This document shows positions 1 to 63,708 of a stretch of DNA of 64,000 nucleotides, piece after piece. Numbering within the stretch: the stretch's first letter is position 1; the number at the start of each line of letters is the position of its first letter. The position numbers and the translations under genes were made by a program. Source of the stretch: Eudromia elegans (taxonomy: Eukaryota; Chordata; Aves; Tinamiformes; Tinamidae); the NCBI GenBank assembly GCA_003342815.1, contig PTEX01000011.1:3410302-3474301 (forward strand), read 5' to 3'. A model generated the notes under the pieces. It was not told the DNA's origin. It was given only the letters and a program-made list of their open reading frames with translations, and did not search any database.

Positions 1-6008
<6,008 letters not shown>

Positions 6009-41320: not shown

Positions 41321-41419
41321 TTTATTTAAATCCCCAAGAAATGGCCATGTTTTCCATCACTTCTCTAATTAAGGAACTGCTTGAATTCCCCCTAATCTCC
41401 TAATCCTGCGTCTTTTATT
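41321..41419 (-). terminator. Candidate polyadenylation signals of the cadherin gene
   Basis: AATAAA on the - strand at 41414-41419 and 41321-41326, about 560-660 bases after the provisional stop of the cadherin. Which one is used, or whether the gene ends elsewhere, is not known. Confidence 0.3.
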
Positions 41420-41981: not shown

Positions 41982-42116
41982 CTAGGAAGGGGACAGGTGG
42001 GTTGTGACAGGCCATTGCAGCAGCAAACGGGTATGGGCAAGAGCTCCTTTCTTATCGAAGCAGTAGCCTGGACTGGTTCGGATAGACACCTGCAGCTCTG
42101 CCATGTTGTACACATC
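41982..42116 (-). CDS. Cadherin provisional last exon
   Basis: The acceptor TCTCTCTCCAG precedes a phase-0 start, DVYNMAELQ, which fits the DFDLSQL-type continuation in other classic cadherins. The frame then runs VSIRTSPGYCFDKKGALAH and on to a TAG, 44 codons in all, without any beta-catenin-binding sequence. Either this is the true short tail, or the exon ends at the moderate donor CAG|GTGTCT after DVYNMAELQ and the rest lies in an unseen exon. Confidence 0.5.
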   Translation of the reverse strand, partial: DVYNMAELQVSIRTSPGYCFDKKGALAHTRLLLQWPVTTHLSPS

Positions 42117-45100
42117 CTGGAGAGAGAGAACATTCACCTTCAGTTAGGATTTCCTGTAGGTACCAAACTTCCAGATTCTAGCACACGGAGAGAGGGCAGC
42201 TGAGGCAGCCTCTCCGGCCTGAACACCAGATCCAGGACTGGCCCGTTCAGGCAGCGCCGCGCTGGGTACAAGACGGTCAGGAACCACCCCGGAGGGGAGG
42301 ATGGCTGGTGAAGAGCTCACAACCGGCATCACGAGCTCTGGATTCAACATTAAATAAACCAGGTTTTGCAACTAGAGCTAAATCGGAATGGTTGAAATGC
42401 CCCATTTTTATTTTAATTCAAATATTAATATTTTTTATTACACGCTGATACTGAAAATAGCAAGCGACATGAGAATGCAATTAGACAAATGGTTCTGCAA
42501 GTAGGTCCAAACACCTACTGGGACTCCTGTTCCAATTTGATCAATCTGTAGAACATTTGCTAAAATTACCTTCTGTGGAAGTGGAATAATTGTAAAAGCC
42601 AAATAACCACTCCTCATACAAAACTGTTTTCCCCTTGTTTCTCCCAGTCAGGATATGGTCAACAATGTCTGATAACTGTTCTGTAGTTCTGAGGTGCAGC
42701 ATCAGTCAGTGAAGCTACCAGTGCCATACGTGTTAATTACATCAACTGCTCATCAGCCCTGGATGACAGCTGAAAAAGAACAGTTTTATCCTGTAGTGCC
42801 CCTGTCCCTGCTGCACTCTAGTGTCGATCTGTGCTTGCTAAGATAACATAAGGATGGCTAGAATGGCTAAGGCTAAGGTCCCCATCGTAATGAGCATAAA
42901 GAAGCACGTGTTTCTGTTAGCATCGCGAGCCCACCTACTACTGTAGTGAAAAAGAACGAGTCTTACTTGGTCTTGTTCCCCACCACCTTCCTCACTGTAG
43001 TTGAGGATTGTTTCTCTGATGTCCTCCACATCCTCATGACATGCCGGCCCGCGGTAACCGCCTCCATTCAGACCTCTGCAGCCCTTGCAGCGAGCCCACC
43101 AGAACACAGCACCAAGCAGAGCTCAGCAGAACACGGGAGCAAAGCTCAGCCCCGCTCACACACGAGGCACCCACGGCCGGGACGGGAGCACGGCCGGGAC
43201 GGGAGCTGTCGGACGGTGGGACAGGAGCACGGCCGGGACGGGAGCCGTCGGGCACGCGTGGCGGGAGGGCTCCCGCTCGGCGCCGCGGAGGCCGCAGCCT
43301 GTGCGGGGCAGCGTGTCGAGCGGCACCGGGCACAGGAGCCAGGAAGAGCTCTGCAAAGCCGGGCTGAGGCAGCTCCTCCAGACCACCGAGAAGGCGCCGC
43401 TCGAGCCTCGGGAGGCCACGTCACGGCCCTCATGTGCAGCTACACTGCAGGTGCCTTTGTAATTGTAGATTTGAGCATCTGCTTCCATTGAACAGCAACG
43501 GAGTTACAAGCAAACATCAAAGACAGCAGCAAAGGCCTTCAAAGAGCACCTTTAAGTTATAAGCATAACAATTACTGAGGAACTGAATGACACCAGTCAG
43601 TTTCAGAGACCTATTTACTGTATTGACTTTGATCTTTCTCAACAGAAAATGTATACAAAGATGTAGCACATAAATAACAATGAGTTGAAAACAACACGTG
43701 AAATTACACAAGTAACAGAAATGAAGTATAAGACGACATAAGCAAAAGAGAAAGGGATGGGTTTTTACACGGTATTAGAAAAAAAAGTCAGCTACATGTT
43801 TTCCCTTAACCATGAATTTAAAGATTTATCTTAAATGCTTAAGATAATACTTACAATCATTAATCTTAAAGACTTCAGCAATATCAGAAATAGAGTATTA
43901 TGTATATAGGAAGTGGCATACCATACCCACGCTACCAACTCTACACGCAGAAGTTCCTAGCAGGACCCATGGCAGACAAACTAAACGCTGCAGTAAATTG
44001 CAGAGACCCCGTGGGTTATCGGCACACCAGAGTGCGGTTCTGCGCAGCAGTATCTAGCGCTGGGAACTAAAACTTGCATTGCTGAGGCCTGTCCCTTGCG
44101 CTGCTCCTCCCAGCAGAGCTGCACTCTTCAAGCTGAGTCAATTCAGTTTTGAGATGTCTTTTTTTTCTCCTCCAAATTTACAAAAACATGACACAAGGGT
44201 TTCCCCAATACTACAACTGTTTGGCCAAGTCATTTTTCCACCGAGCTGCTTTGACATGAGTGTACTATGGGCACGGCTGAAGTTCCAGAGACACAAGTCC
44301 ACTCCAGTACCAAGACTGCAGGTCAGCAACACCCCACTGAAGAGGAGCCTCTTGCATCCAGGTAGCAGCAGTGTAACCTCACCTCCCACTCTCTGCTCTA
44401 CTGTAAACTTATACATTTATAGATAATATTAGCACTCTTTGGAAGCTATGCAAGAATAAAGGCATTTTAAGTCTTAAAAACAATAATTTTATTTAAAATT
44501 ATCCAAATAAAATCTGCAGTTCTTTGATAATACCACAGTTACTTATTAAGATTTTCAGCAATATATAGCATATGGCTAAAAATAACCATTTCTAACCCTT
44601 AATTTATACCTGAAATCAGGATGATTGAATAGAAATGTTGTGGGTTTTTTAATTCAGTCAGTGCATGTATGCACCCAGTCAATTCACCACAAAACTACTC
44701 TGAAACAATGAAAATAAAAGTCTGTTTCTGTAACAATCTCTCATGAATTTTAAATAACTGATTCCAAATCTGCAAAACCAGTTAGCTTCCCATCTTACCT
44801 GCTGCTCAGATTTGCATGGCAAATACAACACGTAGCGGAACTGGATAAAGCAACGTTTTCTTTCCAAGTCCCATAGTTTCAAGATAGTCCACAACAACAA
44901 AGTCTATGGTCTTACTAGAAAATATGATTTATAAAATGCTGTAAAAGCCAAGAGAAAAAATATCCATTTCTTTATGCAGGTAAACTTTCATGCGATTGAA
45001 CAGCCCTAGAAGACGGGATTCCTCATCACTCCCGAGATCCTGCTCACGGAGTGACTCTATACGGGTCTGGTAATCACACCAGCCCGAAGCAGCCGGGAGG

Positions 45101-48100
45101 AGCTGTGACAAAACGGGCGAGACGCAGGAGGCTGCCCGTGTCTGAGCATTCAGACACTCCTATCACACAGCGTATTTCTCCTAGGGTGAAATACCTGTTT
45201 CAGCATCAGTATTATTTTAAACAATGCTTAGCTGCTAGTAATTTGTTCCTACTCAATTGAATTTGCTTCCAGTTTATGCATCTGGAGAGCTTCCTAGCAA
45301 TGAAGTGAAAACACGAAGACGACGATGACTGCAAAGACTGTCCAGAGCTGAGGAGTGTTGACTCACTTGGCAACATCTGCAAATGGGGATGAGAAACGAG
45401 CTGGTGAAGCAGACAGAGACCAGCGAAGGAAGAGCTGGGCCCCATGAGGAGACGGACGTTTCAGCAGACAGGTGACACGTGGAGCACTCAGGACAAGATG
45501 GAGAAACGAATTCACCAAAGGTAATATAGGATGTAGTTGCCATAGCTACCTAGCAGTGCCATAAAGCAAATGCAGATGGCGAACATGGAGCTGAAGCTCA
45601 GGCCGGTGTCCTTGTGGAAGATGGCCAGGGTGACGTCGCACGCGCGCCCGGCGTAGCCGGCGGCGCAGTCGCACCGGAACGCGCTCGGCGACTGGGAGAC
45701 GCAGGTGCCGTAGCGGCAGGGCCGCCGGGCACACGCGGTGCCCACGCAGCGCCGGCCGCTGCCGTTCTCCACCAGCACGCGTCCCGGAGGGCAGCTGCCA
45801 ACGCAAGAGCAAAACGGAAACGGCCCTTTCAGAAAAGCAAGCACGGAAGACCGCGTTTAGGACTGCAAACCACCCTTTGATGGCCTTCCCTACTCAGGAT
45901 TGCTGAAATATCCCCTAGAAGTAAAAACCCTTACATGAGTGGCTGTCAAAATTCAAGTAGTTCCCCAGGCTTCTGGGTAATTTCCTTCATGGAAAATATC
46001 GGGATTAAGATCATGATCTGCATCTCTGCCAGTGAGGAGCAGCTCTGCTGTGTTCTCCATGTTTCCATCAGAGGGAATTTCCAAGCACTCGGTCACGTTT
46101 ATAGCACTTAGAAAAAGCAATTGCCTCTCCAGAAAACGCCCTGTGTGTGGACATTGCCAGCTGGCAATGCTCGAGGTGAGCAGAGGCCATGGCTGACGAC
46201 GGTCACAGCCAATCACCAGCAGAGACAGCACGCGTGCGTTGCGCGGCACACGCTGCACACGAGGCCGGCGGCCATGCGAGGCCAGCGCAGCACCTTTCCC
46301 TGGCTTTCCTTTTTGCAAATGGAGTTTTTCCATTAACATGGAACCATTACAGAGGCTCTGCAGATCTACGTGGGTGACGGGCAGTGCCCAAGAGCCCAGC
46401 GCCCCCCGGGTTCACGGGCAGACAGCGAGCTCCGGGCTGCCAGCAGTGCCCTGGCCGGCGAGACGGCCCGTGGAGCCTCCTCGCGCCCGCGGCCACCCTC
46501 CTCATCTCGTCTCCTCTGCAGGTCCTGTGGTTTCCGTTCCACAAATTACCTGCACTCATGCATCATCCACAGGTCAATGCAAACAAATTCCTGGTGACAA
46601 GGGTTGCTCCTGCAAGCCTCTGAAGAACAGCCTTCCTGCACCCCGCGGGCACTTAACACCGACACCAGCTCCTTCGTGTCGGTGTCCAGGGGCAACCTGT
46701 AGTTATTATATCTGACATCCTTCATACAGCCTGGGGCAAAACACAAGGAAAACAGTTTTAAATTCTGTTAGCAAGAATTATTTGAAGCAGACATAAGATC
46801 TGGCATAATTTAAAGAAGGATAAAGACTGCTAAAATTCAAATCTAGGTCTAAATTTCCTTAAACTTTTATAATATTTTGCTCTTTTTTTTCGTCTGAATG
46901 TGTTGAAGTCTTGATCAAGATTGTCAACGTTTTCAGCAAGAACCTTCAGCCTACGTTCTGAATAGCGAGATCAAGAATTCCTCACCTTGAAAGCTCTGAT
47001 TTTGACTGAACGGGTAGGCGTTTCCCAGGACCAGGCTGCTGGGGTCAATCACGATCTCTCTGTATACTCCTCTTGCTCTCAGAATTTCTCTCTTCCCACC
47101 TCCTTCATAAAGGCGAAGGGTAAATTCATTTTCAATTCTCTCCAGTGTGATATGATGCCATTCACCATTATCAATGTTGTAGAAGGGGAGGCTTACAGAA
47201 TAGTCTCCATCACCCAGATTATATGAGACCATTAAGAACCCCTGAACCACCTTGTGGATAATTAACAGGGTAGTAAGAAAGAAAAGAAAAAGTCACCACC
47301 TAATATTTTCTGTTGACCTGACACATTACTTGGACCAAAACTGGTACATAATCAACAACATTAAATAAAACACTGCTTTAAATTCAGGGTATATTTACCT
47401 TGCCCATACAAAAAATGGCTGCAATATACTACAAAGGTACCTGCGGTGCTACTCAACCCAAATCCTGGTGGCAGGAGCGTACCAGCCAGTGACAGCATAC
47501 AGCTCTTTCTGAGCAATTCTACCTGGCTTCTCTAATTACACAGCAGATCTTCTGGGCAAATCTATGAGACTTAAGTGGTTCCAGATATGGGATATCCCTC
47601 CTACTTGGGTAGCTCAATTCAACTTAGTTCAAGAGGTGATCCATACAGTGACATGGGTCAGGATGAGGAGGATGTAATTTTCAGAAGCCTGCATCACTAA
47701 ACCTGCTGTTCTGCAGGGTCCTAACTAGGTAGACAGTAGAGCCATTGCTGAAGTGGACACCAGAGCAGCCAGACCACCCGCTCTACGTGGTGAACTGGAC
47801 ACTGCACTGCAATGGGCAACCGATTCCCTTGAAGCCATGGGATTCCATGGCTGGGCAACCAGGGTCACAAAAGAAGCATCCATAAGCGTGGATCAAAGAA
47901 CTCTAGTTCCAGGGATTTTGTGCCTGGCATGAGGGTCTGTCTTGATTTTATTTTCAACTGTCAGGCTGATGTTTCACTTGATTAAGCAATGGCTGGGATT
48001 GACGGAATGTTATGCCAGTTATTTCCTGTGTGTTTTTGCTCACCTGCAAAGTGATGTACTCATCCTTGCTTCGAGACGACATGCTCATGATGACACCGCT

Positions 48101-51100
48101 GGGCTGCCGTGTCCTGACCATGGCCTCCACCAGGGTCCGACGGGCGGGCGCGCTCACTGGAAGCTGGTAGCGGATGTGGCTTCCTGGCCCAAACGTGTAC
48201 TCCTTGGCAGCTAAAAAGAGGAGGTCAGGGCTTTCATAAGCGTTCTCTAGGGAGAGGGAGGCGTCCGGCGATTAATAGCGCAGCAGCAAAGCAGGCTTTA
48301 CCTTTCTCGCAGGGATAGCCGTAGTAACCGGGCAGACAGCGACAGGCAAAGGAGCCCCAGTCTCCGAGACACCTGCCGTGCGCCCCGCAGGGAGACGGTC
48401 CCAGGGCGTCACAGCTCCCGTCGGTGAGGGCGCAGCCGGGGGAGCTGCGCAGGGACTCCGCGGGAGCCTGCAGGTCCTGCACCTGCCGGGACAGCGCGGG
48501 ACGACGGCGCCTCGCTGCGCCACGGCCGAGCAACCCGACACAACGCGCTCACGCTTGGACAGCAAGAGCCACGACGCCCGAGAGCGCCCTCGCTACCTCT
48601 GGTGTGCCCCACGCAATCTGACGTTTGATTTTACATTATTTTAATTAAAGTCCAGGTTTCAAATATTAACTATCAAGACCATATTTCTGTCTTTGAATAA
48701 ATTCAACTGACTATGAAAGCTAACAGGCCTAGCAAGTAAACAGCATGAGGGTTGCCATTCACAAGTTCCCTAAATGGGCAAAAATTCTTGACGAGAGGTG
48801 TATGAGCCAAAGTACAAACAAAAAATGTAGTGTTTTGGCTCATAACTACATCTTTCTGTAGGTAAGAAAGAACTTTCAAGGTAATTATTCTAATTACAAT
48901 AAAAAAAGCAGGAGAAATTTCTTATATATGGGCACAGAACAGGATTAATAGGTTGTAGCCACTGTTCACCTGCATGAACGTTATTACAGCAAAACTGAAA
49001 ACCTGGTTGCTATCACCAGCCACAGAAACAAGGTGACGTGATATTTAAACCAAACAGATACCAGCCAGCACACGGCCAGACACGGAGGTGCAATTCAAAG
49101 GCTGCAGTGTTTTGCAAAACGTGGCAAATATCTTGATTTCTATGATTCCATGCTAATGCCAACCTAAATGATTATTGATCACTCCGGGGAGGTTTAATGT
49201 GAATCCCATGATACAGACTCAACAGCTCTGTTCATTGACAGTAACAGAGGCTTTTCAGTGCCCATTCCTTTTTGCTACCAAGCCTGGTTTCCTAACAATT
49301 TAATATGAACATTTATTAATGTTACTCTTTTCTTACCTGAGTATCCAAGATGACATTGCGCAAACAACCAGTAAAGTGTTTGTGCAGCAGCTGTGGGTAG
49401 GAATATGGTAACGATTCTTTTACACCACCCAGCTGAAGAACATGGTTCGCATTCAAATACCTTTGAAAATGATATGCATAACAACAGTGACTGAGAATTT
49501 ACCTTCAAATATTAGAGGAGTCATAAATAACATCTAGACTGCACTTCCAAACAATAGAGGCTTTCTGAGGATAAAAAAAGAAAACACTATCTGCTTCTTT
49601 CTCTGAAATAGTCTGTCCCTGAGCAGAACCTCTGACCTTTAAGGGTATTTTTTTTTTTATATGGCTTTGAAGCCTACTGCAAGTTTTACAGTGTGCATTA
49701 TTCGATTATAATTCAAGTCTGTGTGTTCAAGTCAAGAACAGCTGTGATATTCTAGATATTGTACTTTCAAATCCGTGTCTGTATCTGTTAGGGACTTTGT
49801 TAGGTGAGCATCAAATACATGCAAGGTGCTCAGCCTAGAGGATCCAGAGTGCTCCGGGGTCTGCTGTGGCTACTCTGCCATACCTGCTGTGTCAGGAATC
49901 AACAACAAGGATGACTTCATCACCAGTGGAAAATATTTACTGTAGAAAGCAGTTCATTGCATATTTTGAACAATTAGGTTGACAAGCTTGCCATGTCCTT
50001 CTCCATTGCAGGTATCTCCCATGAACACCCGAATGCTCCCCACAGCTTAAAAAGGCAACTTTCTTCTGATCTCCCACTGAAAAGGATCCCTCATTCACTC
50101 ACCGTTTCACACCAGGTTTCTCAGGGCCCTGGTGTGACTCTGTTCTCCACTCTGGAGGATTCATTCCACAGCAGGATCTCTAGTCAGTATTAATCTCTTG
50201 GTCAGCTTTCTGAACCCCACTGAACTTGCTCTTTCTTCCATCTCCTTGACATTGCACTCAGCAGCTGGCACTGATGTCAGAATGGTTGGGGATGCTCAAA
50301 CCCCAATGACTGGGCCAGCTTTCACCACCTTCATTTGCAAGAAGAGTGCATTTGACTTACTCAGGTGCCTGAGTTTTAATTAAACCAGCAGACACACTTA
50401 AGAATGGGACACTTATGTGGAATTTATCTGACTAAACTTACACATTGTGGATGTTAACAGCTACAGATGAGCCATAACCCTAGGCTGGTTTTACAGTCTA
50501 TATACTACAATCACTGGAGTCTACAGAGCAGTTTGGCTTGCCTGACGCAGACATCTGAAGCCAGTTGTATGAATCACTCCTGGGAACTGCCTCCTCGCTC
50601 ATCTATAAGGACAGGCTAGTCCTGCTGCCTCCAATCCGGACACTTACGGTGGGGACATAAAAGCCAGGCCAGCTGTACCCTACAATACCCTGCTTTCTGT
50701 TCAAAGGGTTGTTCCTCCCTGGCCGTACCCAGCAGGTCGGTACCTATCTCGCACTGTGGTTCACGGGACTGAGCCCAGACCTGCAGCTGAGGCCTCGCAG
50801 TGCCAAGCAAGCGCAAGCATTACCTCTGATTTCTTACATGCGATGAGGTACTGCTGCACGCTGCTTGTGTACACTGCCCTGTACGCTTGCTCTGTGACTT
50901 TCCGCATGGAGACACCGTAACCTTGGGCTGCCTTCACACATGTGCCAGAATTTGTCAGCAGGAGCCCTCAGATTTGTAGGAATGAGGCTGTAAGACTGAG
51001 GGAGCACCCAGAGTTACTGCCATTAATAAGTCAACCGGCCTAATTTTCAGAGGTTCTCAAGAGCAGATTTCTAGTGATTTACTAAGGAAGTTCTGTGGAT

Positions 51101-54100
51101 AAGGCAGGGTACATCTCACCCACAAGAGCTTCATCATTAGCCACGCAGCGCTCTGCAGTTGCCACTACTGGGGGGGAAGCCTGGCTCCTCCAAAATAGGA
51201 GGAGGATCAGTACTCCTCGTCATTGATAAACTGCTTTTTATCTGATGGAGCGCTCCAAAGCTTTGGACTAGGCCGCTCGTTGCAAGCGGACCTCCAACGG
51301 TGCCGTTACCTTGCTGGCCGGGGAGCCGACGCGGAGGCTTCGCAGCCGCTGCGGTCCTCGCTGGACAGCCGCTCGCCCACTCCTTCGGCCTCCGCGCCCC
51401 GGGCGGCGCCGCAGCGGTCCAGGGTGAGCCGCACGCCCTGCGCCGCGCCACGAAACACACGTCACCCCACCGAGCGCGCCGGCGAGCTCCGCCACAGCAC
51501 TAGCGCCTCTCAGAGGACTTCAAGGAGGACACCGTCCTTTTTCTTTTTGCACACACACAAAAATTCTGCTGCATTTTCCACCTCACAGCAAATAGCAAAG
51601 CCAAAATAGACTCATTTAACAAAGGAGAAAAAGACCCCTACCTCAGTATTTAATTTGTAATTCAAGGTATTCTGATCACATTCATGAAACAAATAACTGT
51701 ATATGCAAATAAATAATTCTCTGCTTTTTGTGCACAGGCTTTCAGCATTCCAATGTATAAACTGACTGTGCAAATTATAACTAACCCTGTAGGCACCTTC
51801 CTTCTGTGCTGCAGAGCTTTGAAAGAAATATCAGAACAAACAAAAAAAGCCTTGATTCCAAAATTTAAAAGATGGCAACACAGGGGGATTCGGAGCAGAC
51901 AGTGCAGTCTCCTCAAAATTTGTATTATTCACCAAGTCTGAGCAACACAGCTGGATGAACGTAGGTAACTACCCAAGCTCAGTCCTTTTACCGTTCAACT
52001 TCTGCAGGGGCAAGTATGATGAAAGCAACATTATTCCGATAGGGAAAAAGGAAAGAACTGACCTGACCACTGGTTCTGACTTCCAGGTGATGCCATTTTT
52101 TGTCCATTACATTCAGGTGACTTGGTAACTGCAGCATCACTGCACCTCCGCCGAGGCTCATCTTCAGCACGGGAATACCACTGGACAGCTCTAACACCAC
52201 AAGAAAAATCAATTAAATGCACCTACAAACATCTTCTGAATTTAGATATTGTAGCATAGATAGTGAATGTACTGACTTAATCCTTATCACTAATCACACA
52301 AAGCAGCGTCCAGTATAGAAATATGGAATTATAGTCTATGGTCTTTATGATGCAAGAATATTCACACACTGTAGTATGGATTTTTATATTTTAGCTTTTG
52401 CCACTTCTTTGTCAAGAGTAAAACACTAGAACTAATATCTGATAATCTGTACCTTCAAAATGCATTAAACACACACATACAGCTTTTTACACCCTCCCAA
52501 CTTCTACCCACATCCACAAGCAACTGCAAAACAAAGCCAAAACGAAGATAACAATTAACAATATCCAACAACATAATGCTTCAAACAATTAGAAAAATAT
52601 AGAGGACCAATTATACCATGCACTTGGTATGGTAACTCATAAAAAAATATGCAGGAGTAAGCCAGTCTTTTAAATACATATCAACTTAAAGCAATGAATT
52701 CTACTTGTGTATAATTTTTCCTATATTGGTGCTTTGGTGCTGGATTCATTAATCAAATCATTGCCCATTTAAAAAGAAAAGTGCAAAAATACCATAAGAC
52801 AGGACGCAGGCTAAGTGGATTTCTTTGCTCATTAAACTAGATAAGAATAACATATATTAAGGCTGGATTAATCACATAATACTCATCTTCAAAGCACCTG
52901 AATTCCCTTATAGCACTAGAGGTTTCCTAGTAGGATTTTTTCTCCTATATACAGATTTGGCTGCTTTATTTTCACCTTCACTTCTACATCTCTTTGATGA
53001 ACTTAAATCAGGTTATGAGGACACACCAAAGCAAAATGATCTATTAAAGAATGTTTCAAAATACTTTCCAGCGTTTTCAATCCAGAAAATAAGTTCTCAT
53101 AAATAATTATCTCCTAGGATAGAAAGAGAATCCCCACTTTAACTACCAGACTGTTCCCATGACGGTCATTCCCAAAAGACAATTGATTTTCCCACACCGT
53201 TGTGCAGAAGTACCTATTGCGATGAAGGTGTCCGCACGTCCAGGTTCCGGGTTTGCTAGAGGACCGCTGTACAGCAACAGGCCGTCCGGAGCCGCGGTAA
53301 TGAACTCCAGAGAGAGGGAGCTCTCCAGGCACGGCCGGAGGGGCGGAAACCACGCGTAGCCATTCCCATGGAAACTGTGCTGGGTCTGTTGGCACTCTGG
53401 TCCGTGAAACGAAGCGGGACAAACACATCTGGAAAGCAAGAAAATACACACACACAGAGTCACGATTCTTTCGCAATCAATTTTTCTTTGGCTTTACATA
53501 CAACAAAACTAGTACTTAAATCACATTAAAAACTGCAGTGAAACAATGCAGATTTTACTTGGGTTTCATCTATACAAGGATGATCTACTTATTAAAATAT
53601 CTTTATAAGTAGAAAGCATATTTATCCACCATACTGTTTCCTTCCAAAATCATTTTGAGACTCCGTTAGACATTCCCGCGTGGATTCCCAGGTCTGAGCT
53701 CACACTCGTGCACTCTCCCCACTGGCCCCAGGACACGAGCACCGTCACCGGCCCGTGACGTTGCTGTCATTACGTGTGTGTTCCAGGACACCTCGGGCTT
53801 TGTTGCTCCTCCTCTGCAGGAGCGTATTGATCTCTTCTAGACGTGAATCTTGTTAGCCACGCTCGGCGTTTTACAGGCAAAAGCAGGATGAAGGAAGGGA
53901 AGCTGCAGTAGGGGTTTCCTCACCTGTAACCATGGAGGGTGTCAATGCACCTCCCACCGTTGAGACAAGGGCTTCGAGGGTAGGAGGCACAAGGCCGGTG
54001 GAGTCGGTCCTTGGCTGCGCAGCTGCAGACGGCCTCGAGGGCGGCGGTGACAGAGACAAGCGACACGCTGCCAGCGTCCGTCACCGTTGGGATGTCACCC

Positions 54101-54861
54101 ACTGCCAGGCGGTTGGTGCAGTCGGTGCCACCGCTACAGTTCGCCCTCCTACATTCATCTACATCGATCTCTGAAATGTTCACTTGTAAAGCTGACTGGA
54201 TCTAGGAGAAAACAAAGAAAATCACCCATCTTTCCCCAAACAGTGCTTCTGTTTACCAAGTCATCATAAACTTAATGGAATGGTTTGATTTTTTGAATAG
54301 TAGTCAGCAGCGTCCCTGACAAGTGAAGAGCAAGCACAATGACTTAACAAGGCCAGGAATTTTTTTTAGAAGTTGTCAGCAGTGATATTTCCTAACACTT
54401 AATCATTGGCACAACTGAGCATGCCAGGTCTGTCCTGACCCACTACCATTACTGCTAAGGACTAAGCTCGGGTAGCAGTTATACTTCACCTGGTGAACTG
54501 TGTGGTCTGCACTGTCTGACAGCAAAGAGAACACTTGGCTCAGACCCGGATGAAAACACGTCCTCATGGGCTGCAGCTGGGTATTGCTTCATAACTCCTC
54601 CAGCAATCTGAAGGCCCAAGCCTACCAAGAGGTGCACCCAGCGCCCCGGCCTCCACCCAGGAGAGCTCACTGCTCTCCCAGCCACGCGGGCCCAGAGTGA
54701 ATCACGGGCAGCAGGGACATAGCACCGTAAATCTGACAAGGTGACATCAGATTCAGGCTCTCATTACTACTTATATAGTTAATATAGCATTCCAGTACAA
54801 AATACAGGACAAGTACTTTAACAATAAGCTTTGAAAAGACTAAAATATATAAAAGCTAATA

Positions 54862-54906
<45 letters not shown>

Positions 54907-57900
54907 ACTTTGCTGGTACTTTCAATTCAATCCAGGACTCCAAGAACTTTGACCTTTATAACCAGTTTTGAAGACATCCTCAAATACCGTAACGTGCTGA
55001 GAAACAAACTCCCAAAGGAATAAAAAAAACCCATATAATGACACAATGAATCCCGCCAATGCAGTCTGGGGTCTCATGTCCACATCTATAACCATTAGTA
55101 GGCAGCCTGTATCAGACATTTAGACAGCTATGCAGTACTGTAACAGAAAAAAATATGGAGTATATAAATACTCTTAGCTCCTTTATAGCAGAGGATGGAT
55201 TACTTCTGCTACTAATGGAAAATGGTTGTGGTAAAAGCATACAACAAGCAAATTAATAAAAACATATTATTTATTTAGCTATTCAATGAATAATTCCAGT
55301 GCTAATTGCTTATTTTCTATAAACATATATACAAAAAATACTGAAAAAAATCTCTGGCTGTGATTGGTTTCTGCAGTCTATTGGTGATCACTCACCAGAG
55401 CTATTCATTAAATATTGAAAGGTGATATATATTTAAAATATACATTTTTTTCACTAAAATATGCGAATCAAGACCCTTGTTACCAGTCTGATGAATTCAC
55501 CGGTCATATTTTATGGCACAGAATATTTGAAATCTATGCAATTTTCTGTATTATTATTTTAAAAGTTCTATAAATATGCATAAGCAGCTGCAGTTATGCT
55601 ACATGAAGAGTATCTGTCTCTGATGCTTCCAGCTTTGGCCATTCTGAGGCTCCCAATAACCCGCCCATCTATTTAAGATCCAAGCAGAGTGTTCTGCTGT
55701 CTGACAGCAGCTGGGCAGGGGCAAGTTGTGCTCTTCGGCTCCCAGACCCATGCAGACACTACGATACTGACACCAACAGCAAGTGTTGCTCTCTCCTCCA
55801 GAACCACCCGCCATGGGATGGTACCACCCCATATCGTGTGCAAATACCCGCTAGGGCTGCAAAGGGAAGGCGAGGAAGGGAAGCGCTGCCTTGTCCGGAG
55901 CGGGACGGGGCTGGCCGGCTGAGCGGCAGCATCTCGCCCTCGCGCAAGGCACGAAGCTTCCGCCGCGGCAGCCGCTCGGTCACTGCCCCGGCGCACTGCA
56001 GCACAAGCCAAGATCCGGAGGACTGCAGAGAGCGGCACAGGAGAGGGGCCCAGAGGGGCTGCGTGCGGGCACCGAGCCACGAGGCACGCACGAGGCAGCC
56101 AGCGATCAGCACAGGCGGGTCCTCGGGGTTAGGAAACAACTGCCATGCTAAAGCCATTCCATTACTGAGACACGGGCGAGGTCGCGGGTTAGAACTGACC
56201 CGCAGCTGGTCAATACCCCCATGGAACTGGTCGTTTCCATCTCACTCACCTGCTCCATCCCATCTTCTGAGCTGCACGTGCGCTCCAGGAGGATCCTTTC
56301 CCAAGGACCGCAGCCCATTCGTGCAGCGCAGTGTCAGCCCGGATGGCATCAAGCTGCTACTATAATACAAACATCTAACCAAAGGTGGGCAGCTGGGGTA
56401 TCCCCGTCGGCACCCGCCATGTGGAACGCTGTCACTTTGGAGACATTCTCCATGTCTCAGCACCACTTGAGCTTCCAGCTGCTTCCGGGTTCGTGCTCAA
56501 AATTAGGTAAACTTCACAACGAGACTGACTCTGGAGAAGCCCGCGTGCCACCTTCTCCCACCAGTGTCCGCCTGGGACCAAATAGCAGGTCTACATGACA
56601 ACGCTAGGGCACATACCTCATACTTAAATGCTGCCATCTCAGCATGCAGCTTCTCTGGTCTGTAAAACGCAGAGCCATCCACGACTGTGAATCTGACGTC
56701 TGTCTGTTTTCCACCAGTGTTCAGCACGCTGAAGACTGTGATATCGCTAAGCCGAGCTGAAAATACTTTTGCCAGCGATTCCTTGAACCTGTCATGTCTG
56801 TTTTTGCCATACTCATCCCTTCTTATGAATTCCTCTGCTGTGACATCTGAGTTTGAGATACGTAAAAACATAAACACAATATACTGGAGATTACAGGTTA
56901 GTCCCCCAACTTACTTCTTCCTTAACAATGGGGAAACATACTAGAAAGTACATATGCATACATAAAAATCAAAGATTTTCTTTTCAAAAAAGAAGAAAAA
57001 AAAAAATCACACAAACATTTAAAATATTTAAGTACCTGATCTAACTCTCACCTGGCAAATAAAACTAACCTTCCAGGCGCACAGTGGCTGAATTTTGGAT
57101 GGCTTCATTTTCCAACTCTTGGACATGGATTTGTATCGTAGATATAACATCAGGCCAAACTCCATCAGAAACTCTAACTCTTAAATTGTACGTTCCTTGG
57201 GGAACGTGATCCACCATCACCAGAGAGCCACTCCTCTGATTTAATCTGAAAGCTCTGAACGTAAGAGTTCCAATAAGGAAGCTTAATAAATCAAAGCTGA
57301 AAATATTCCCTATTCATTTACCTAAGTTAAAAGCCCCAAACTACAAACATTCTAGGACCAATATTTAGACCAAAACCACCTTAATTGTGGCATGGCAGTG
57401 TGGAGAGTTTAAAAAAGCTGTTTTTATAACTCCCAAACCCCCAGACTTTCTCATTCCTGAATAAAAGCATGTAGTCCATAGGAGTCAGTGTAGCCTTGGG
57501 GTTCAATGTAGGAATCAAGCACAAGTCTATACGGCAAGTAACAGAAAACAACAAAAACAAATAAAGGATTTCTGGATTCTCCTTCACCCGTTTAAAACAG
57601 AAGGGGCTCTGTGTGAAAGCCACGGTTCCATCTGCAGGTTCAACCCAAAGGGACAGCACTCGCTATCTGGAAATCTCTGCTAACCCAATCACTAACCAAG
57701 AGTCACCTCTCCAAATGGAAAACAGGCCCTGTGGCTGCGGATAGACAGGAACTTTTACTTTGATCTTGATAAAGCTTTAAAACCCTCATTCTTCCTAACG
57801 CAGACAAAACCTCATATTCATTCTCCATAAAACCTTCATCTATATTTCAGGGCAGAATATAATTACATTATATGTCATCTCACCTTTTGATATGAATAAA

Positions 57901-60900
57901 CAATGTATTAGGAGGAGTGAAGGATCTAATTTAGTATTTCTGTAAGCCGAAATAACTACCAAATTAAAAGTTATGATTGCCCACACAACTGTAAATTTAG
58001 TCATCAAGGGACATCAAACTCACTTCCATGGCTGAAGAAATGATTCCCTTTAGAATTTATTTGTATTCAATCGACTAATCAACATTTGGGGGTTTGCATT
58101 TAAAATACAATCTATTTTTAAATTGAGTCTTACAAAAAGCACACGGTCAAATAAATTGATGAGGAGATCTGACTGAAAATCAAAGTCCTGGTATGACCCA
58201 AAAGAGGGAGGTATTTCATGCATTAATTTCTTGATACCTTATTATCAGAGCTTAAAAAACAAAAACAAAAAAAAAAACCCCACACCCAAAAAAAAACCCC
58301 AAAAAAGGTATTCATAAAATAAAATAAATTCCTTAGCATACTCAATCCAGGCTTTAAGCACACCCTCACTCAGGACAGTGAAATATACAGTAAATAAATT
58401 AATTAAAGCAGCATATCGATATAACTCATTTTGACATAAATACAAGCCTCACTTGAGCAGTTTTCCTTCAGAGAGAAATGTTTTATTGTCCCAGTCATCC
58501 TGATCTGGTGCAAACACTTTTCCAAGCACTGTTGGTGACCATTTTCCTGTTGAAATAAATAATAATAAATCTGCATTTCATTTTTGCTTTTCAGTGGGCT
58601 TTAAATTTCCCTGCATTCATTACCAAACTCATCATCGTAAAATTCCTGCATGAGTGGGTGACAGTTACGATCTCAACCTCCCAAAACAACAGCCTGTCGT
58701 ACGATTTCTGCTCCCAGCTCTCCTGGAAAGGTGAGCAACCCATGGACGCCAATGAAAGGAATTAAAACGGGACGGGCACCAGAAGGACACCCTAACACAA
58801 CCCTTCATGCAGCGGTCAGCCCGGCTCCTCAGCAGGAGTCACAAGTCCCAGACCTTCCCTTCGCCCCGCTCCTCTACACGGCAGTGAATCGCACACGGGT
58901 GGGAGGCAGCAAGCAAGGGCAGAGCATCTCCGGGGCTGCAGCTGGGAGGTAAGAACACGGCGGAGCAGACCAGGCTCTGCCCGCCCTTGGCACTTCCACT
59001 CAAGGACACGTCCAGAAGAGCAACTTTTTTTTGTCCAAGACTGCCTGTTCTAGGAAGCAGCTGCTTACGGCTTCCTTAAGATTGTCTTTGCATCCCGTCC
59101 TAGCAAAGCACCGACCCAGCTTTTCCTTAGGTATTTCCTTTGCTGGTATAAGGCCTCATTTCACATAAATTATATGCACAGAACGGCTGTCACAGTGAGG
59201 GTGAGCCTGATCTACACTGTCTGTGTAAGGCTTTTCTGGGCATCCAAATCACTTCAGTTCAATCATTTTCATCCCTAGACCTCTCAGTGCCAGATGATTT
59301 TTGCATCTTCTGCACACAAAATAACTTCTGATTGGTGAAAACATACAATGAACACAAAATAGATGCTATTAGTTTATAAAAATACTACATATTTACTGTT
59401 GTAGATAAAAATATTTCAGAAAAAATATCTGTTTGTAGCTAGCAGTCTTTTGACAGGTATTTTTACACATCAGGGTCTAAATTGGTAAAGAGACAACCAG
59501 TAAGGCCCATCTTTCCCATACTTTATTTAGGATATCTCATTTTATATATTATACACTTAATATTTTACAGAATTGGAGCTTTAGTCCGAAAACAGGTAAA
59601 CCATAAAGATAGAAATAATGTGCAAAATTGTACCATATTCACAAGACTGATCCTACAGGTAACACTTACCCTTGTCACTGTACACATAGATGTCCTTATG
59701 GCCAGATCGATGGGGGGTGTCGTTTTCATCACCAATGGTTATCGTCAGCGTGTTTGTAGCGCTCATAGCTGGAATCCCGCTATCTCTTATAATTATTGGC
59801 AAGTGAAACACCTTCTGCTTCTCTCTGTCAAAGGACCTCAAAGCTGTAATGGTTGCTGTGTTATTTCCGTTGTCAGTAAGAGAAAAATCCAGCGAATTCT
59901 GATAATCTGGTGGCAATGAAAACATAAAGGGTGGTCCATTTTCCTCACTGTCCGGATCAAACGCATGCAGCAGCTTGGACGTATGGTTCATATGCACCAC
60001 CTCAGGCCTCAACGTGTTTTCCCAAACCACAGGCACGTAGGGTGCCTCAAACCTCGGCCCGTTGTCGTTCACATCAAGCAGGTCAATCACAACAGTGACA
60101 CTCCCCGTTCGGGCTGGAGTCCCCTGGTCGGAGGCATGCACAACTAAACTGTATTTCTGAATGACTTCACGATCTAGAGCACCCACCACCATCACACGGC
60201 CATCGTGGTCAACTGCAAAGTGTCTCATAGGATCCGAATCTGACCGTATGGAATATACAACGTTCCCATTCAAACCAGAATCCTTGTCGGTAGCGCTCAC
60301 TGTGGTTACTGTAGTACCTACAGGAGTATTTTCTAAGATGGGACTTGTTTCAATAAACTGAGAATGAAAAGCTGGGCTGTGGTCATTAGAGTCTTCGACT
60401 TCGATCAGACACGACGCAGTACTAGAAAAATCACGATCCTCCACCTTGACAGTAAGGTTGAACTGCCTTTCATGTGCTTTCTCAAAATCCAGGGTTTTTT
60501 TCAGTCTGATAGTAGCACATTGACATTCTCCATCATTCTCAATATAAAACTTCTGATCCGGATCTCCTCCAACGATGCTGAAAGTCAGGCCAGCGTTTTC
60601 CCCAGCATCTGCATCTGTAGCAGACACCTGCAGCACCCCCGTGTCAACGTCGCTGCTCTCGGGAACTGCTGCCTGCCACAACCCTTTGGTGAATGTGGGC
60701 ACGTGATCATTAACGTCCGCAATCCAGACCGTGGCAGTGCCAGTCCCTGCCAGCCCTCCCCCATCTGCTGCCTCTACAACAAGAAAATACTTCTCAGTCA
60801 TTTCTCTGTCCAGCAATCCCTCTGCTACGTGGATGGTACCAGTACTGGGATTGATATTAAATAAATCGGCACCAAGTTGATTTTTCACGTTCTCTGTTAT

Positions 60901-63708
60901 CCTGTAGGTCAGGACTGCATTAAGACCTACATTTGGATCGTCAAGATCAACCGCACTCATCTCCATGACCAACGTGTCTGCAGGAGAATTTTCGAAGACC
61001 CTCCCGTTGCAGCCGCCCAGCACGCACACGAACCTGGGGGCATTGTCATTTACATCCCACACGTTAATAATTACGTCAGCAAACCCAGTAAGTCCTTCTC
61101 CACCTTCGTCGGTGGCCAATACAACAAATCTCCACAGTGCTTGCTCCTCCCGGTCCAGCGGCTCCTGCGAATAGATGCTGCCCGTGTTCTCATCTATCGT
61201 GAAGGCATCAGCTGCCCCGTGCCCATGCAGCGAGTATCTCACGTCTCCTCCACGAGGATTATCAGGATCCTTTGCCACAACCTACAGAGGTTTTCAAAAC
61301 AGAGATCTAGGACTTGTATAACATGCAATGTTTACATTGTAGTCCATATCCTGCCACAGTCTGAGGAAGGAGTTCAAGCTGAGGTGTGCGATATACTTAA
61401 TATACACATTAGATCAATGACAAATGAGAGGTGGTTCAAGGACAGTAGACACTAGATGTATATGCTCTGCATCATAACACCTCCAAAACAGTATTAAAAT
61501 TATCTTTTATCTTTTCATATTTATATAGCTAATTTAACTATACTATTATACTATAACCATACTAACTGTATGTACTAGCTGTACCAGCTATTTAGGATTA
61601 CAAGAGTCATTCTGCTTATCTTCATTTTCATATTTTTTTCATAAACCTCTATTTTTCTTCTTCCATTGACAAAAATACTCAGAACTAAGTTTCATTAATA
61701 TGTTTGCGCTGGATTATTGTTAGTTTAACTGTGGCTATACAATCTGGGCTCTCCCCTGTAATATTATAATCTCTGAAACTACACGTTACCTGAAGGACAA
61801 AGACTGGTAACCCATCCAGTTCCTCAATTACACTTCCATAGTATTCATTGATAGAGAAAACTGGAGCCTCATCATTTTTATTCATGACATTGATGATGAC
61901 AACTGCATAATCTTCCCATTTTCCATCAGATGCCAACACGTGCATCTCATACGTTTCTGTTTCTTCATAATCTAGTGGCTGGGCAATAAAAACGGCTCCT
62001 GTTTCTGGTTCTACATCAAGTTTCCCTCTTGCATTTCCAGCTGTGATCTGGTACCGTAATTTAGCATTTGTTCCTGTCAGTTACCAACAGTGTTAGAAAA
62101 CATACAAGTACATTAAAACATAGTGTGTTAAGATGAAGTACCAATAACGTAGTAATTAATTTTTGGTATTACAGATCAAATTGATTGAATACCATTGACC
62201 ACCATGGCCAAAAGATGGAAATCTGCATCTCCCCCACAGAGTTACGGGGGACGGCTTATGTACTTGCTTCTACATGACTTGTTGCTGAACTTCTTACTGA
62301 TTTGGAGATAAATCAATACAGCAAGGACTGATGCATTTTTAGAGCATCCATTTTCAAACATGACAACTATAGTATGCAAGAAAACAAAACAATCTCCCCT
62401 GCCCTTAGAGAACGAAAATGAATCTCACTGACATGAAGTCTGATTAATTCTCATCATCTCACATCAATACACTGCCTCATGTACTTAGCTATTTGGCTTA
62501 TGCCCCACAGCTCCCTTCCCAACTAATATTCATGCTCCATCAACTCAGACAAAGAAGTCTTAAAATGTAGAGACATAAAGACATTTTCCTTGTATCATCA
62601 CTAAATATGTCTTGGTGTGGCAAAATTAACTCTATTAATATTTTAGATACAGCCATAGGGAGTTCCAACACTCTACCTTCGTCTTCATCGTTAGCACTGA
62701 CTGTAACGACAGTGGAGCCCACATCCTGGTCCTCATCCACATTCACCTCGTAGACACTTTGAGTGAAGATGGGCTTGTTATCATTCACATCACTGATGAA
62801 AACGCGCACGTAGGCCACGTCTGGAGGGACAAGGAACAAGAGGCTGAAACACTCAGCGGGGCCACTTGTGTCAGCTGCAGCTGCTTAAACTGCCGAGCTG
62901 CACGTTGATGTGCATCAACGTGCACGCCGTGTGCATGCTGAAGGTGAGCGTGCACACAGCACAGAAACAAACCCTCAGGACTGCCCACAATTCATATAAC
63001 AGCACCACTCAAAGGCATTTGGATATCAAGTGAATGTCACGTCCAATCTGATATTTAATCAGGGAGCACATAAAAACTGTACAATTGTCTTATTGAGCAT
63101 AAGTCATAACTTTTTGTCCTAAAGCCACAAAAGCAAAACTTAAAATCTTTATCTAAGCACAACCATGAGCTTTTTGTCTTGAACATTTCTGCTTCATACT
63201 TCATAATTACTTTCAGCTGTGCAGTTTGAGCAGTACCACGTGCAGTGCTCTGAGAAAGAGCACTACCTAAACAAGGTTTGCATCCCACGGATAGCAAGAA
63301 GGTCATTGCTACTTAGAAAAGCATCTCTAAAATCTAAGCATGAGGCCCTAGTTTTCTTTCCATTTTAGAACAAACAAACAAAAAAAAAAAACCACAAGTT
63401 CACCTGAAAACAAGCAAACAAACAAAAAAAAAAAACACCACTAAAATTTAGTTTTACGTTTCAAGATCTCCTCTTCACAGAGATCAATGCACATAATAAC
63501 ACACGGCCATCAGTTTCTTACCAGAGTTTGGCTGCCCCCGTTTTCCAGGCCGAGCTGATTCAGAGCCATCTTCTGACCTGACTTCTAAAAGGTAGGACCC
63601 CTTCTTCTCTCTGTCAAATACTGAGGTTGTGTAAACGGAGCCTGTCCGCGAGTCCAAGCAAAAATGTGTGTAGTCTCCACTAGGGTCATGTAACAGTGAG
63701 TAGGTTAT
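41982..63708 (-). CDS. Type III (non-chordate-type) classic cadherin, Hz-cadherin-like; 3' part of gene
   Basis: Nineteen exons on the - strand join without a frame break into 1645 codons; the 5' exons lie beyond the window. Order: about seven cadherin repeats with Ca-binding motifs (DVNDN, LDRE, DxNDxxP); an NE-type region beginning GKWSPTVLGKVFAPDQDDWD; a cysteine-rich domain with DVDECRRANCSGGTDC; EGF; laminin-G; EGF; laminin-G; two EGF-like units; one transmembrane helix; and a cytoplasmic p120-catenin core (EDIRETILNYSEEGGGEQDQ). This complex before the membrane defines type III classic cadherins, such as Drosophila DN-cadherin. In vertebrates it is known from chicken Hz-cadherin of retinal horizontal cells and from fish, and is reported absent from mammals. 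It is a calcium-dependent adhesion receptor of the plasma membrane. It could also be called a neural-cadherin-like gene. The last exon is provisional. Confidence 0.92.
42117..42966 (-). other. Last cadherin intron with orphan hydrophobic ORF
   Basis: An exon-like stretch (42838-42940) with acceptor-like CACTACAG encodes SRWARDANRNTCFFMLITMG and a hydrophobic end before TAG. A Pro/Ser/Ala-rich ORF at about 42160-42350 has no usable splice phase and is not accepted as coding. Confidence 0.5.
42967..43121 (-). CDS. Cadherin exon: membrane helix end and p120-catenin core
   Basis: The acceptor CTGCTGAG ends at 43122, and phase 1 joins to give a helix ALLALLGAVFWW, then the stop-transfer ARCKGCRG. 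The juxtamembrane part ends EDIRETILNYSEEGGGEQDQ, the p120-binding core of all classic cadherins. The exon boundary after GEQDQ falls where E-cadherin also splits (GEEDQ). Donor GTAAGA, exit phase 0. Confidence 0.9.
43122..45549 (-). other. Cadherin intron within the membrane-helix codon
   Basis: Contains the GC-rich minisatellite next to the acceptor; the rest is AT-richer and without supported exons. Confidence 0.65.
43172..43244. repeat. GC-rich 17-bp minisatellite
   Basis: Three perfect copies of CACGGCCGGGACGGGAG at 43172-43188, 43189-43205 and 43228-43244. A related 22-base unit lies between the second and third. It is about 50 bases upstream (in gene sense) of the transmembrane/juxtamembrane exon. 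Confidence 0.9.
45550..45794 (-). CDS. Cadherin exon: last EGF modules and first half of membrane helix
   Basis: Acceptor CGTTGGCAG, donor GTAGCT. Ends one EGF-like unit and encodes another (CRYGTCVSQSPSAFRCDC, AAGYAGRACDV), then TGLSFSSMFAICICFMALL, the start of the transmembrane helix. Exit phase is 1 inside the helix. Confidence 0.93.
45795..46549 (-). other. Cadherin intron, GC-rich
   Basis: GC-rich short intron between the EGF-bearing exons. ORFs on both strands come from GC content; no domain seen. Confidence 0.65.
46550..46730 (-). CDS. Cadherin exon: laminin-G 2 end and EGF-like start
   Basis: Acceptor TTGCCCCAG, donor GTAATT. Encodes GCMKDVRYNNYRLPLDTDTK, then a cysteine-rich start, CSSEACRSNPCHQEFVCIDL. 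Exit phase 2. Confidence 0.92.
46986..47250 (-). CDS. Cadherin exon: laminin-G 2, main part
   Basis: Acceptor ATCCACAAG, donor GTGAGG. Encodes VVQGFLMVSYNLGDGDYSVS, DNGEWHHITLERIENEFTLR and VIDPSSLVLGNAYPF. Exit phase 1. Confidence 0.94.
47251..48043 (-). other. Cadherin intron inside laminin-G 2
   Basis: No coding content. A 7-bp inverted repeat (GCCATGG/CCATGGC) lies at about 47834-47851. Confidence 0.65.
48044..48210 (-). CDS. Cadherin exon: laminin-G 2, start
   Basis: Acceptor CTTTTTAG, donor GTGAGC. Encodes KEYTFGPGSHIRYQLPVSAP and VRTRQPSGVIMSMSSRSKDE, then YITLQ, a laminin-G N-terminal half. Exit phase 0. Confidence 0.93.
48302..48482 (-). CDS. Cadherin exon: second EGF module
   Basis: Acceptor TCCCGGCAG ends at 48483; donor GTAAAG. 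After a linker it encodes a six-cysteine EGF: CGAHGRCLGDWGSFACRC then LPGYYGYPCE. GC-rich, exit phase 1. Confidence 0.92.
49337..49460 (-). CDS. Cadherin exon: laminin-G 1, end
   Basis: Acceptor TTTCAAAG, donor GTAAGA. Encodes YLNANHVLQLGGVKESLPYS and YPQLLHKHFTGCLRNVILDT, the standard laminin-G C-terminal strands with FTGCLRN. Exit phase 0. Confidence 0.93.
49461..51309 (-). other. Cadherin intron inside laminin-G 1
   Basis: No supported exon or repeat. The flanking exons already join in phase, so nothing is missing here. Confidence 0.65.
51310..51437 (-). CDS. Cadherin exon: laminin-G 1, GC-rich insert
   Basis: Encodes GVRLTLDRCGAARGAEAEGV, then a Ser/Ala/Arg-rich loop ending ASASAPRPAR. 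The acceptor GCGGCGCAG has a poor pyrimidine tract, but phase and the laminin-G strand (VRLTLDRC) support it. Donor GTAACG, exit phase 2. Confidence 0.82.
52063..52190 (-). CDS. Cadherin exon: laminin-G 1, middle
   Basis: Acceptor GTGTTAG, donor GTCAGT. Encodes ELSSGIPVLKMSLGGGAVML and DKKWHHLEVRTSGQ, with the typical laminin-G WHHLEV strand. Exit phase 0. Confidence 0.93.
52191..53213 (-). other. Cadherin intron inside laminin-G 1 (AT-rich)
   Basis: AT-rich, no feature seen. Confidence 0.65.
53214..53428 (-). CDS. Cadherin exon: EGF end and laminin-G 1 start
   Basis: Acceptor GCTTTCCAG, donor GTACTT. Completes the EGF (CVCPASFHGPEC) and starts the laminin-G fold (FHGNGYAWFPPLRPC, LSLEFITAAPDGLLLYSGPL). 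Exit phase 1. Confidence 0.93.
53924..54201 (-). CDS. Cadherin exon: Cys-rich domain and first EGF start
   Basis: Acceptor TCTCCTAG, donor GTGAGG. Encodes IQSALQVNISEIDVDECRRA, then the block VTDAGSVSLVSVTAALEAVC, and the first half of an EGF module (SPCLNGGRCIDTLHGYR). This is the signature of the type III membrane-proximal complex. GC-rich; exit phase 2. Confidence 0.95.
54866..54904. repeat. Poly(A) run (39 A)
   Basis: Uninterrupted A homopolymer. No retroposon body was recognised upstream and no obvious target-site duplication around it. Length in the assembly may be unreliable. Confidence 0.9.
55860..56110. other. Intragenic CpG-rich patch
   Basis: Dense CpG in an otherwise AT-rich intron. 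No coding sequence is recognised on either strand. It could be an orphan CpG island or internal promoter; unproven. Confidence 0.5.
56617..56846 (-). CDS. Cadherin exon: NE region, third part
   Basis: Acceptor AACTCAG, donor GTATGT. Encodes DVTAEEFIRRDEYGKNRHDR, a domain with FSVLNTGGKQTDVRFTVVDG, and PEKLHAEMAAFKYE. Exit phase 0. Continues directly into the cysteine-rich exon. Confidence 0.93.
57070..57254 (-). CDS. Cadherin exon: NE region, second part
   Basis: Acceptor TACGTTCAG, donor GTTAGT. Encodes AFRLNQRSGSLVMVDHVPQG, TYNLRVRVSDGVWPDVISTI and the linker QELENEAIQNSATVRLEG. Exit phase 1. No ORF of 60 codons covers it. Confidence 0.92.
57255..58452 (-). other. Cadherin intron inside NE region
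   Basis: AT-rich. An A/C-rich low-complexity tract lies at about 58256-58308. Nothing else supported. Confidence 0.65.
58256..58308. repeat. A/C-rich low-complexity tract
   Basis: Alternating A runs and CCCC blocks inside a cadherin intron; likely slippage. Confidence 0.75.
58453..58546 (-). CDS. Cadherin exon: start of NE region
   Basis: Encodes GKWSPTVLGKVFAPDQDDWD then NKTFLSEGKLLK, with an N-glycosylation sequon. The DxDDWD core is typical of the type III membrane-proximal region. Donor GTGAGG, exit phase 2; too short for ORF finders. Confidence 0.92.
58547..59669 (-). other. Cadherin intron before the NE region
   Basis: No exon seen. The flanking exons join to DKGKWSPTVLGK, as expected for the family. 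Confidence 0.65.
59670..61281 (-). CDS. Cadherin large exon: four full EC repeats plus the end of another
   Basis: A 1612-base exon. After the end of a repeat (DVNDNAPRF), four full repeats follow with linkers DVNDHVPTF, DSNDHSPAF, DVNDNGPRF and the atypical last DENDTPHR, which leads into the juxtaposed NE region as in DN-cadherin. Acceptor CTCTGTAG, donor GTAAGT, exit phase 1. Confidence 0.95.
61282..61789 (-). other. Cadherin intron between EC exons
   Basis: AT-rich short intron; no feature seen. Confidence 0.65.
61790..62073 (-). CDS. Cadherin exon: EC repeat
   Basis: Acceptor AACTGACAG, donor GTAACG. Encodes LRYQITAGNARGKLDVEPET, then a linker (NVMNKNDEAPVF) that departs from the usual DVNDN, and a further repeat start ending LPVFVLQ. 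Exit phase 0. Confidence 0.92.
62074..62676 (-). other. Cadherin intron between EC exons
   Basis: No supported feature. Confidence 0.65.
62677..62820 (-). CDS. Cadherin exon: repeat boundary with DVNDN motif
   Basis: Acceptor TCCCTCCAG, donor GTAGAG, phase 1 both sides. Encodes VAYVRVFISDVNDNKPIFTQ, the Ca-binding linker, then the start of the next repeat ending SANDEDEG. Confidence 0.92.
62899..62924. repeat. Perfect 12-bp inverted repeat with 2-base spacer
   Basis: Arms TGCACGTTGATG and CATCAACGTGCA around TG, about 80 bases upstream (gene sense) of a cadherin exon. It can form a stable hairpin or be a dimeric protein site. Confidence 0.85.
63371..63436. repeat. A-rich AAAC low-complexity tract
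   Basis: Two runs of A with AAAC repeats separated by about 25 bases of unique sequence. Confidence 0.7.
63522..63708 (-). CDS. Cadherin exon: first visible EC repeat
   Basis: Acceptor CTCTTTTAG, donor GTAAGA. Encodes ITYSLLHDPSGDYTHFCLDS then TSVFDREKKGSYLLEVRSEDG, the middle of a cadherin repeat. Exit phase is 1. The upstream exon is off-window and must end in phase 0. Confidence 0.9.

Follow-up and report, generated by a model that had tools for sequence, protein, structure and literature searches.

A type III cadherin gene next to DPY19L3 in Eudromia elegans that seems to keep a p120-type core and has no detectable beta-catenin-binding domain

Type III cadherins are defined by an ectodomain in which the EC repeats are followed by the order NC-CE1-LG1-CE2-LG2-CE3, and they are regarded as the ancestral form of classic cadherin in bilaterians (PMC5473995). 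Type I and type II classic cadherins have five repeats and are devoid of the NC/CE/LG block (PMC5473995). Drosophila DN-cadherin is cut within the NC domain, before SPYYK, a cleavage for which, according to the same paper, no functional significance was revealed (PMC8325961). An "apparent loss in mammals" of the type III cadherins is stated in a further paper (PMC10734073), in agreement with the original prediction on the locus described here, which held that mammals are reported to be without them. DN-cadherin, itself of type III, has a domain order like that of the gene that we have analysed, and chicken Hz-cadherin and fish Pn-cadherin have the ectodomain order in common with it, a likeness drawn by way of the type III definition. 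The tail of DN-cadherin is catenin-binding, whereas no beta-catenin-binding domain was detected in that of the present gene. As for chicken Hz-cadherin, it was reportedly the subject of a 2004 article by Tanabe, whose title is said to link it to the horizontal cells of the retina.

We analysed a stretch of 64,000 nucleotides from Eudromia elegans, hereafter the window (C3:3410302-3474301), which belongs to a 944-megabase assembly of 723 contigs. On its minus strand, where nineteen phase-consistent exons had been predicted, the window contains a genuine type III cadherin gene with an open frame. These 19 exons (63708-41982) were rebuilt with the same count and the same two end coordinates, in an open frame and with GT-AG introns. 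With 13 exons located upstream, the joined model comprises 32 exons (75527-41982 in window numbering) with consistent phases and a reading frame of 2,433 codons, which contains zero internal stops and a single, terminal one; all of the 31 introns can be placed at GT..AG. The splice sites were picked semi-manually, after an automatic exon chain with strict splice thresholds, which recovered many exons, missed others and added spurious ones, had been dropped. We did not find the 5′ end of the gene, to which the signal peptide and one or more initial repeats belong: above 75.6 kb, a profile of the gene's own repeats returned three chance-level matches only (E 2.2 to 7.4), and inspection of 75600-83600 by eye revealed no cadherin repeat. 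A run of N of 1,180 bases with GC-rich edges (81447-82626) is situated between the first recovered exon and the PDCD5 gene and may be the hiding place of the promoter and of the signal-peptide exon, while runs of N are absent between 12130 and 81446. A search of 37700-64000 against Rfam at the gathering threshold gave zero matches.

The composition of the encoded protein, which had been given as cadherin repeats, an NC/Cys-rich/EGF/laminin-G complex, a single membrane helix and a p120 core, emerges alike from Pfam and from reading of the sequence. Pfam recognises 15 cadherin stretches, two laminin-G and four EGF stretches in the joined protein; by eye, 15 EC repeats and the end of another can be read and, since the 5′ end is missing, their number is at least 15, within the 14 to 17 that serve as the repeat criterion of type III cadherins. 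The first exon inside the window (63522-63708) encodes a cadherin repeat, at residues 789-850 in the numbering of the joined, partial protein, and is followed, always on the minus strand, by an exon at the boundary of a repeat (62677-62820), by one with further repeats (61790-62073) and by a 1,612-base exon (59670-61281) with about five repeats, which is 57% identical to the exon of a paralog on contig C113. Two more exons contain the last repeat (58453-58546) and its end together with the start of the NC domain (57070-57254). This domain (Pfam Ig_Shg, residues 1612-1753, E 5.2e-19) adjoins the last EC repeat, continues through the exon 56617-56846 and ends in 53924-54201, where the first Cys-rich EGF-like region (CE1) is also found. 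The end of CE1 and the start of laminin-G 1 share the next exon (53214-53428), and laminin-G 1 occupies 52063-52190 and 51310-51437, and ends in 49337-49460. The second Cys-rich EGF-like region (CE2) is at 48302-48482, laminin-G 2 is at 48044-48210 and 46986-47250, and its end is joined to the third Cys-rich region (CE3) in 46550-46730. CE3 and the first part of the membrane helix are encoded by 45550-45794, the remaining helix and a p120-type juxtamembrane core (EDIRETILNYSEEGGGEQDQ) by 42967-43121, and the last coding exon (41982-42116) begins with DVYNMAELQ and reaches its stop after 44 codons. Overall, the Pfam stretches placed on this exon map give the order NC-CE1-LG1-CE2-LG2-CE3 before the one membrane helix, which was read from the sequence. 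Two linkers between repeats, SIIAGLRPPQF and ITSAKNQPPQW, appear by eye to be without the usual calcium-binding motif; counted back from the NC domain, they fall one linker earlier, and the match is inexact.

The nearest relative of the gene was sought in its own genome using the 537 residues of the long exon. Self scored 1226 bits, the C113 locus 648 bits, and any other place at most 170 bits (81 of 272 candidates scored; the places at or below 170 bits are cadherin loci, left unnamed). The outcome that the original prediction had named as counting against it, a higher score for FAT, DCHS or some other cadherin outside type III, therefore did not occur, the closest relative being a type III paralog. 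The NC domain itself is found at two loci of the genome, on C3 and on C113 (all four first-look candidates were scored, and two matched). The C113 match of this domain overruns its exon by approximately 25 bases and crosses one TAA.

The paralog (G000:C113:4781655-4749683, minus strand) was noticed because CE and LG exons lie upstream of one of the catenin-binding domains of the genome. Its model has 27 exons that encode 2,233 residues, and one more exon was identified afterwards. The 5′ exons were not recovered, and at that end is a run of N spanning 11.3 kb (4782595-4793897). The two proteins are identical at 53% of the aligned residues (1,133 of 2,121, a count that leaves out the first four window exons and the exon skipped in the C113 model), and their exons match. 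Both genes are of type III and have a p120-type core, whereas a catenin-binding domain (PF01049, 76 bits in the Pfam scan) is present in the C113 protein only. A second difference concerns the position at which DN-cadherin is cut. There the alignment of the two proteins, compared by eye with the DN-cadherin cleavage site, has VVDG-SAFYRPEKL (G-S) in the window gene, within the NC-domain exon 56617-56846, and VVYG-PPYYKTEKL (G-P) in the paralog, within the exon C113:4761661-4761429. Compared with the DN-cadherin site, the serine is thus kept in the window gene and absent from the paralog.

The surroundings of the two genes were compared as well. As predicted, the window cadherin lies tail-to-tail with DPY19L3 on the plus strand (19285-37759): Pfam Dpy19 matches C3:3429586-3448045, i.e., 19285-37744 of the window, the last coding ORF ends with a stop at 37759, and further 5′ exons are situated upstream of 19285. 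On the other side of the cadherin is PDCD5 (plus strand, C3:3500097, about 89796 in window numbering; one exon, E 7.6e-6). On C113, a DPY19-family gene (minus strand, about 4826018 to 4803015) is followed by the cadherin on the same strand and then by INTS8 (Pfam TPR_INTS8, E 4.7e-8, in one of three candidate ORF peptides). The genome has three Dpy19 loci only, on C3, C113, and C269, and two of the three adjoin a type III cadherin. In the presumed human gene order, DPY19L3 neighbours PDCD5 and DPY19L4 neighbours INTS8; the names L3 and L4 of the C3 and C113 genes rest on this order, the number L3 being also that of the original prediction. Human DPY19L3 maps to 19q13.11 and DPY19L4 to 8q22.1, and the duplication that separated them predates the divergence of the fish lineage (PMC1475853). 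The two type III cadherins look like ohnologs, and the simplest account, drawn from synteny, would be the duplication of one ancestral DPY19-cadherin block along with the early vertebrate genomes. Two further features were observed at the far side of DPY19L3. A run of N of 461 bases (11669-12129) occupies a GC-rich stretch upstream of this gene, perhaps a promoter island, and open frames at 5101-6008 on the plus strand contain a stretch resembling C2H2 zinc fingers (Pfam zf-C2H2, E 0.003, under the cut-off). Judging from the human order as we assume it, these frames may be ZNF507.

The cytoplasmic tail is the part in which the gene departs from the description that had been given of it. The p120-type juxtamembrane core is present (NYSEEGGGEQDQ), as judged by eye from a comparison with cadherin tails of the same genome, and binding of p120-catenin by the tail is predicted from this motif. 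Among the type I and type II cadherins of the genome, 12 tails include the core in their open frame, and there it reads EGGGE; the tails of these cadherins were retrieved via their catenin-binding domain, whose presence there is consequently no independent test. Beyond the core, the two type III genes diverge: the last exon of the paralog starts with DAYDIDELK and runs for 133 codons through the beta-catenin-binding domain, as compared to the 44 codons of the window gene. PF01049 was unlisted in a Pfam scan of the window protein at a threshold of E 1, a limit to be read with the HMMER filters in mind, which discard most matches above about E 0.1. In a six-frame profile search of 10.5 kb (36000-46500), the best match to the catenin-binding domain was at chance level (E 0.37), although the same profile, built from six cadherin tails of the genome with the tail of the paralog excluded, recovers the latter at 6.6e-22; the stretch between the two convergent stops (37760-41981, taken on the minus strand) is thus without a significant match in any frame. 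Likewise, tblastn of the paralog's last exon in the region around the window tail gave a best E of 0.53, again chance level.

At the genome scale, PF01049 yields 19 matches over the cut-off, 17 of them at 84 bits or above and two at 36-39, and none of the 19 is on contig C3. When read individually, 12 are type II-like (each a single open frame including the membrane helix and the p120 core), four are type I-like exons, one is the type III paralog, and two are the weak ones, on C47. The latter we take to be desmosomal by their look. The power of the search was determined by placing a simulated, decayed catenin-binding exon at the locus (20 trials per level): the profile found it in 20/20 trials when intact, in 19/20 at 10% substitutions, 15/20 at 20%, 6/20 at 30% and 1/20 at 40%, and in 0/20 at 50% and at 60%. 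An old unselected remnant could therefore escape detection once its decay exceeds about 30%. On this evidence, the window gene keeps a p120-type core and seems to be without a detectable beta-catenin-binding domain, a part expected of any classic cadherin. The label of classic cadherin consequently holds by half. The type III ectodomain and the p120 core stand; as written, the label is not supported, because it requires a beta-catenin-binding domain and none was found, an absence that the original prediction had left unmentioned.

The gene could nevertheless be an ordinary full-tailed type III classic cadherin whose catenin-binding exon was lost from the assembly or from our gene model. A single assembly is at hand, and the presence of PF01049 in the last exon of the paralog indicates that the ancestor probably had a beta-catenin-binding domain. 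In addition, the TAG that ends the last exon (41982-42000, minus strand) doubles as the AG of a good-looking acceptor (TCCCCTTCCTAG, score 4.1) and a weak donor is found at 42090 (score 1.5), so that the 3′ part of this exon could be misread. However, if the donor at 42090 is joined in phase to an alternative exon that follows 41981, this exon encodes GSLISSIYLC followed by a stop, i.e., ten codons; the region is free of N, profile and tblastn searches found nothing in its 10.5 kb, and the 19 PF01049 matches of the genome were read as tails of other genes. We consequently hold a hidden full tail to be unlikely. A short tail that is peculiar to this species or to the one assembly examined could also account for the data. 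Replacement of the tail by a repeat element was considered and set aside, as a 901-base query around the stop (41300-42200) has no second copy in the genome, in a search that passes over very common words.

Some signals near the tail are recorded here for their own sake. On the minus strand, AATAAA motifs that include those at 41419 and 41326 lie beyond the stop, and others fall inside the last intron, at 42439 and 42412. Read-through of the donor past the p120 core (42966-42838, minus strand) would give a short tail with a strongly hydrophobic end (CFFMLITMGTLALAILAILMLS), then a stop. A transcript ending at the AATAAA of 42439 or 42412 would thereby add a second membrane-like segment, possibly a product of chance.

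Whether the reading frame is maintained or decaying was judged from its integrity and from the distribution of differences with the paralog. Under neutral drift, if 0.08 frame-shifting indels are assumed for each substitution, the probability that such a gene shows zero stop, frame-shift or splice lesions would be about 0.01 at 0.5% substitutions per site and about 1e-4 at 1%. At codon positions 1, 2, and 3, the repeats differ by 0.31, 0.24, and 0.63, the NC-CE-LG part by 0.43, 0.34, and 0.62, and the membrane and tail part by 0.40, 0.37, and 0.61, a pattern that places the strongest constraint on the repeats and less on the membrane and tail block; the NG86 estimate against the paralog gives dN 0.40, with dS undefined by saturation. 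Taken together, the lesion-free frame and the codon-position pattern make it very likely that the gene is coding now, or was until recently.

The words "until recently" leave room for an early stage of decay, in which the tail would already be gone and the remainder would be open only through the recency of the loss. Such a course would fit three observations: the last exon is truncated, the later portion of its counterpart in the paralog is unrecognisable at the window locus, and constraint is weaker in the membrane and tail block. On the other hand, 2,433 stop-free codons and 31 usable introns would survive a drift of 1% only with the small probability given above, and positions 3 and 2, which differ at 0.63 and 0.24 of the EC codons, respectively, testify to long constraint, though not to recent constraint. 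We regard decay as somewhat less probable still than a concealed full tail. Finally, that the gene is a FAT, Dachsous or CELSR member, families that also have cadherin, EGF and laminin-G domains, is extremely improbable, provided that the NC match is genuine: FAT4-type and CELSR2-type Pfam repeat models do exceed the cut-off in its protein (88 and 65 bits) and, of the solved structures in the PDB, that of CELSR1 comes closest to the long exon, but the same models also match the type III paralog (68.7 and 47.3 bits), which outscores all other loci and shares the NC domain with this gene alone, and the gene has one membrane helix and a p120-type core. PDB relatives were found for the repeats and for the laminin-G domains; among the best 60 of 89 and 177, none is a type III entry by name. 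A search of the contigs of other organisms returned a single distant match, a cadherin-like repeat stretch in the spirochaete metagenome contig VFJS01000049.1 (30% identity, query residues 117-212).

Overall, the most probable reading, in which we have good though not full confidence, is that the gene is one of two type III ohnologs and encodes, in 32 exons, a single-pass adhesion receptor whose tail has the p120 core and no detectable beta-catenin-binding domain. Such a protein would adhere through its cadherin repeats, would undergo cleavage within the NC domain, as DN-cadherin does, and would be retained at the surface by p120-family catenins without being directly coupled to beta-catenin, alpha-catenin and actin. 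Where both type III proteins share a cell, it could lower or redirect the adhesion of its full-tailed sister; alternatively, it might serve to label the surface in places where anchorage is unwanted. The designation "Hz-type" is retained in the sense of type III. In the sense of an orthologue it is unproved, as the genome has a second type III gene, the one with a beta-catenin-binding domain, and either of the two may correspond to Hz-cadherin.

The difference at the cleavage site, combined with that in the tail, suggests that the two genes have divided the features of one ancestor. A wider proposal, which we put forward tentatively and consider possible rather than probable, is that birds or a wider group keep two ohnologs with a split ancestral job. 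The gene on the DPY19L4 side would have kept the beta-catenin link and lost the NC cleavage serine, while that on the DPY19L3 side would have kept the cleavage site and given up the coupling to beta-catenin. The DPY19L3-side protein would be a stable p120-only adhesion receptor of classic type, conserved across species and used in neurons in which actin anchorage is not wanted. Among the titles and abstract openings of the literature that we consulted, none describes two vertebrate type III genes and none describes a type III tail without a catenin-binding domain; the subscription literature lies mostly outside this set, and a publication on two such genes may exist.

The presence of two type III genes in one vertebrate genome, both of them adjoining a DPY19 gene, would place the origin of the pair in the early vertebrate duplications. 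The search for a remnant of the lost mammalian gene, which had been directed to the region downstream of DPY19L3, can be narrowed to the interval between DPY19L3 and PDCD5, provided that the presumed human order holds, and the interval between DPY19L4 and INTS8 would, under the same assumption, be the place for that of the second gene. Moreover, a p120 core without a beta-catenin-binding domain would allow the two halves of the cadherin tail to be separated in a natural protein, and not in a construct.
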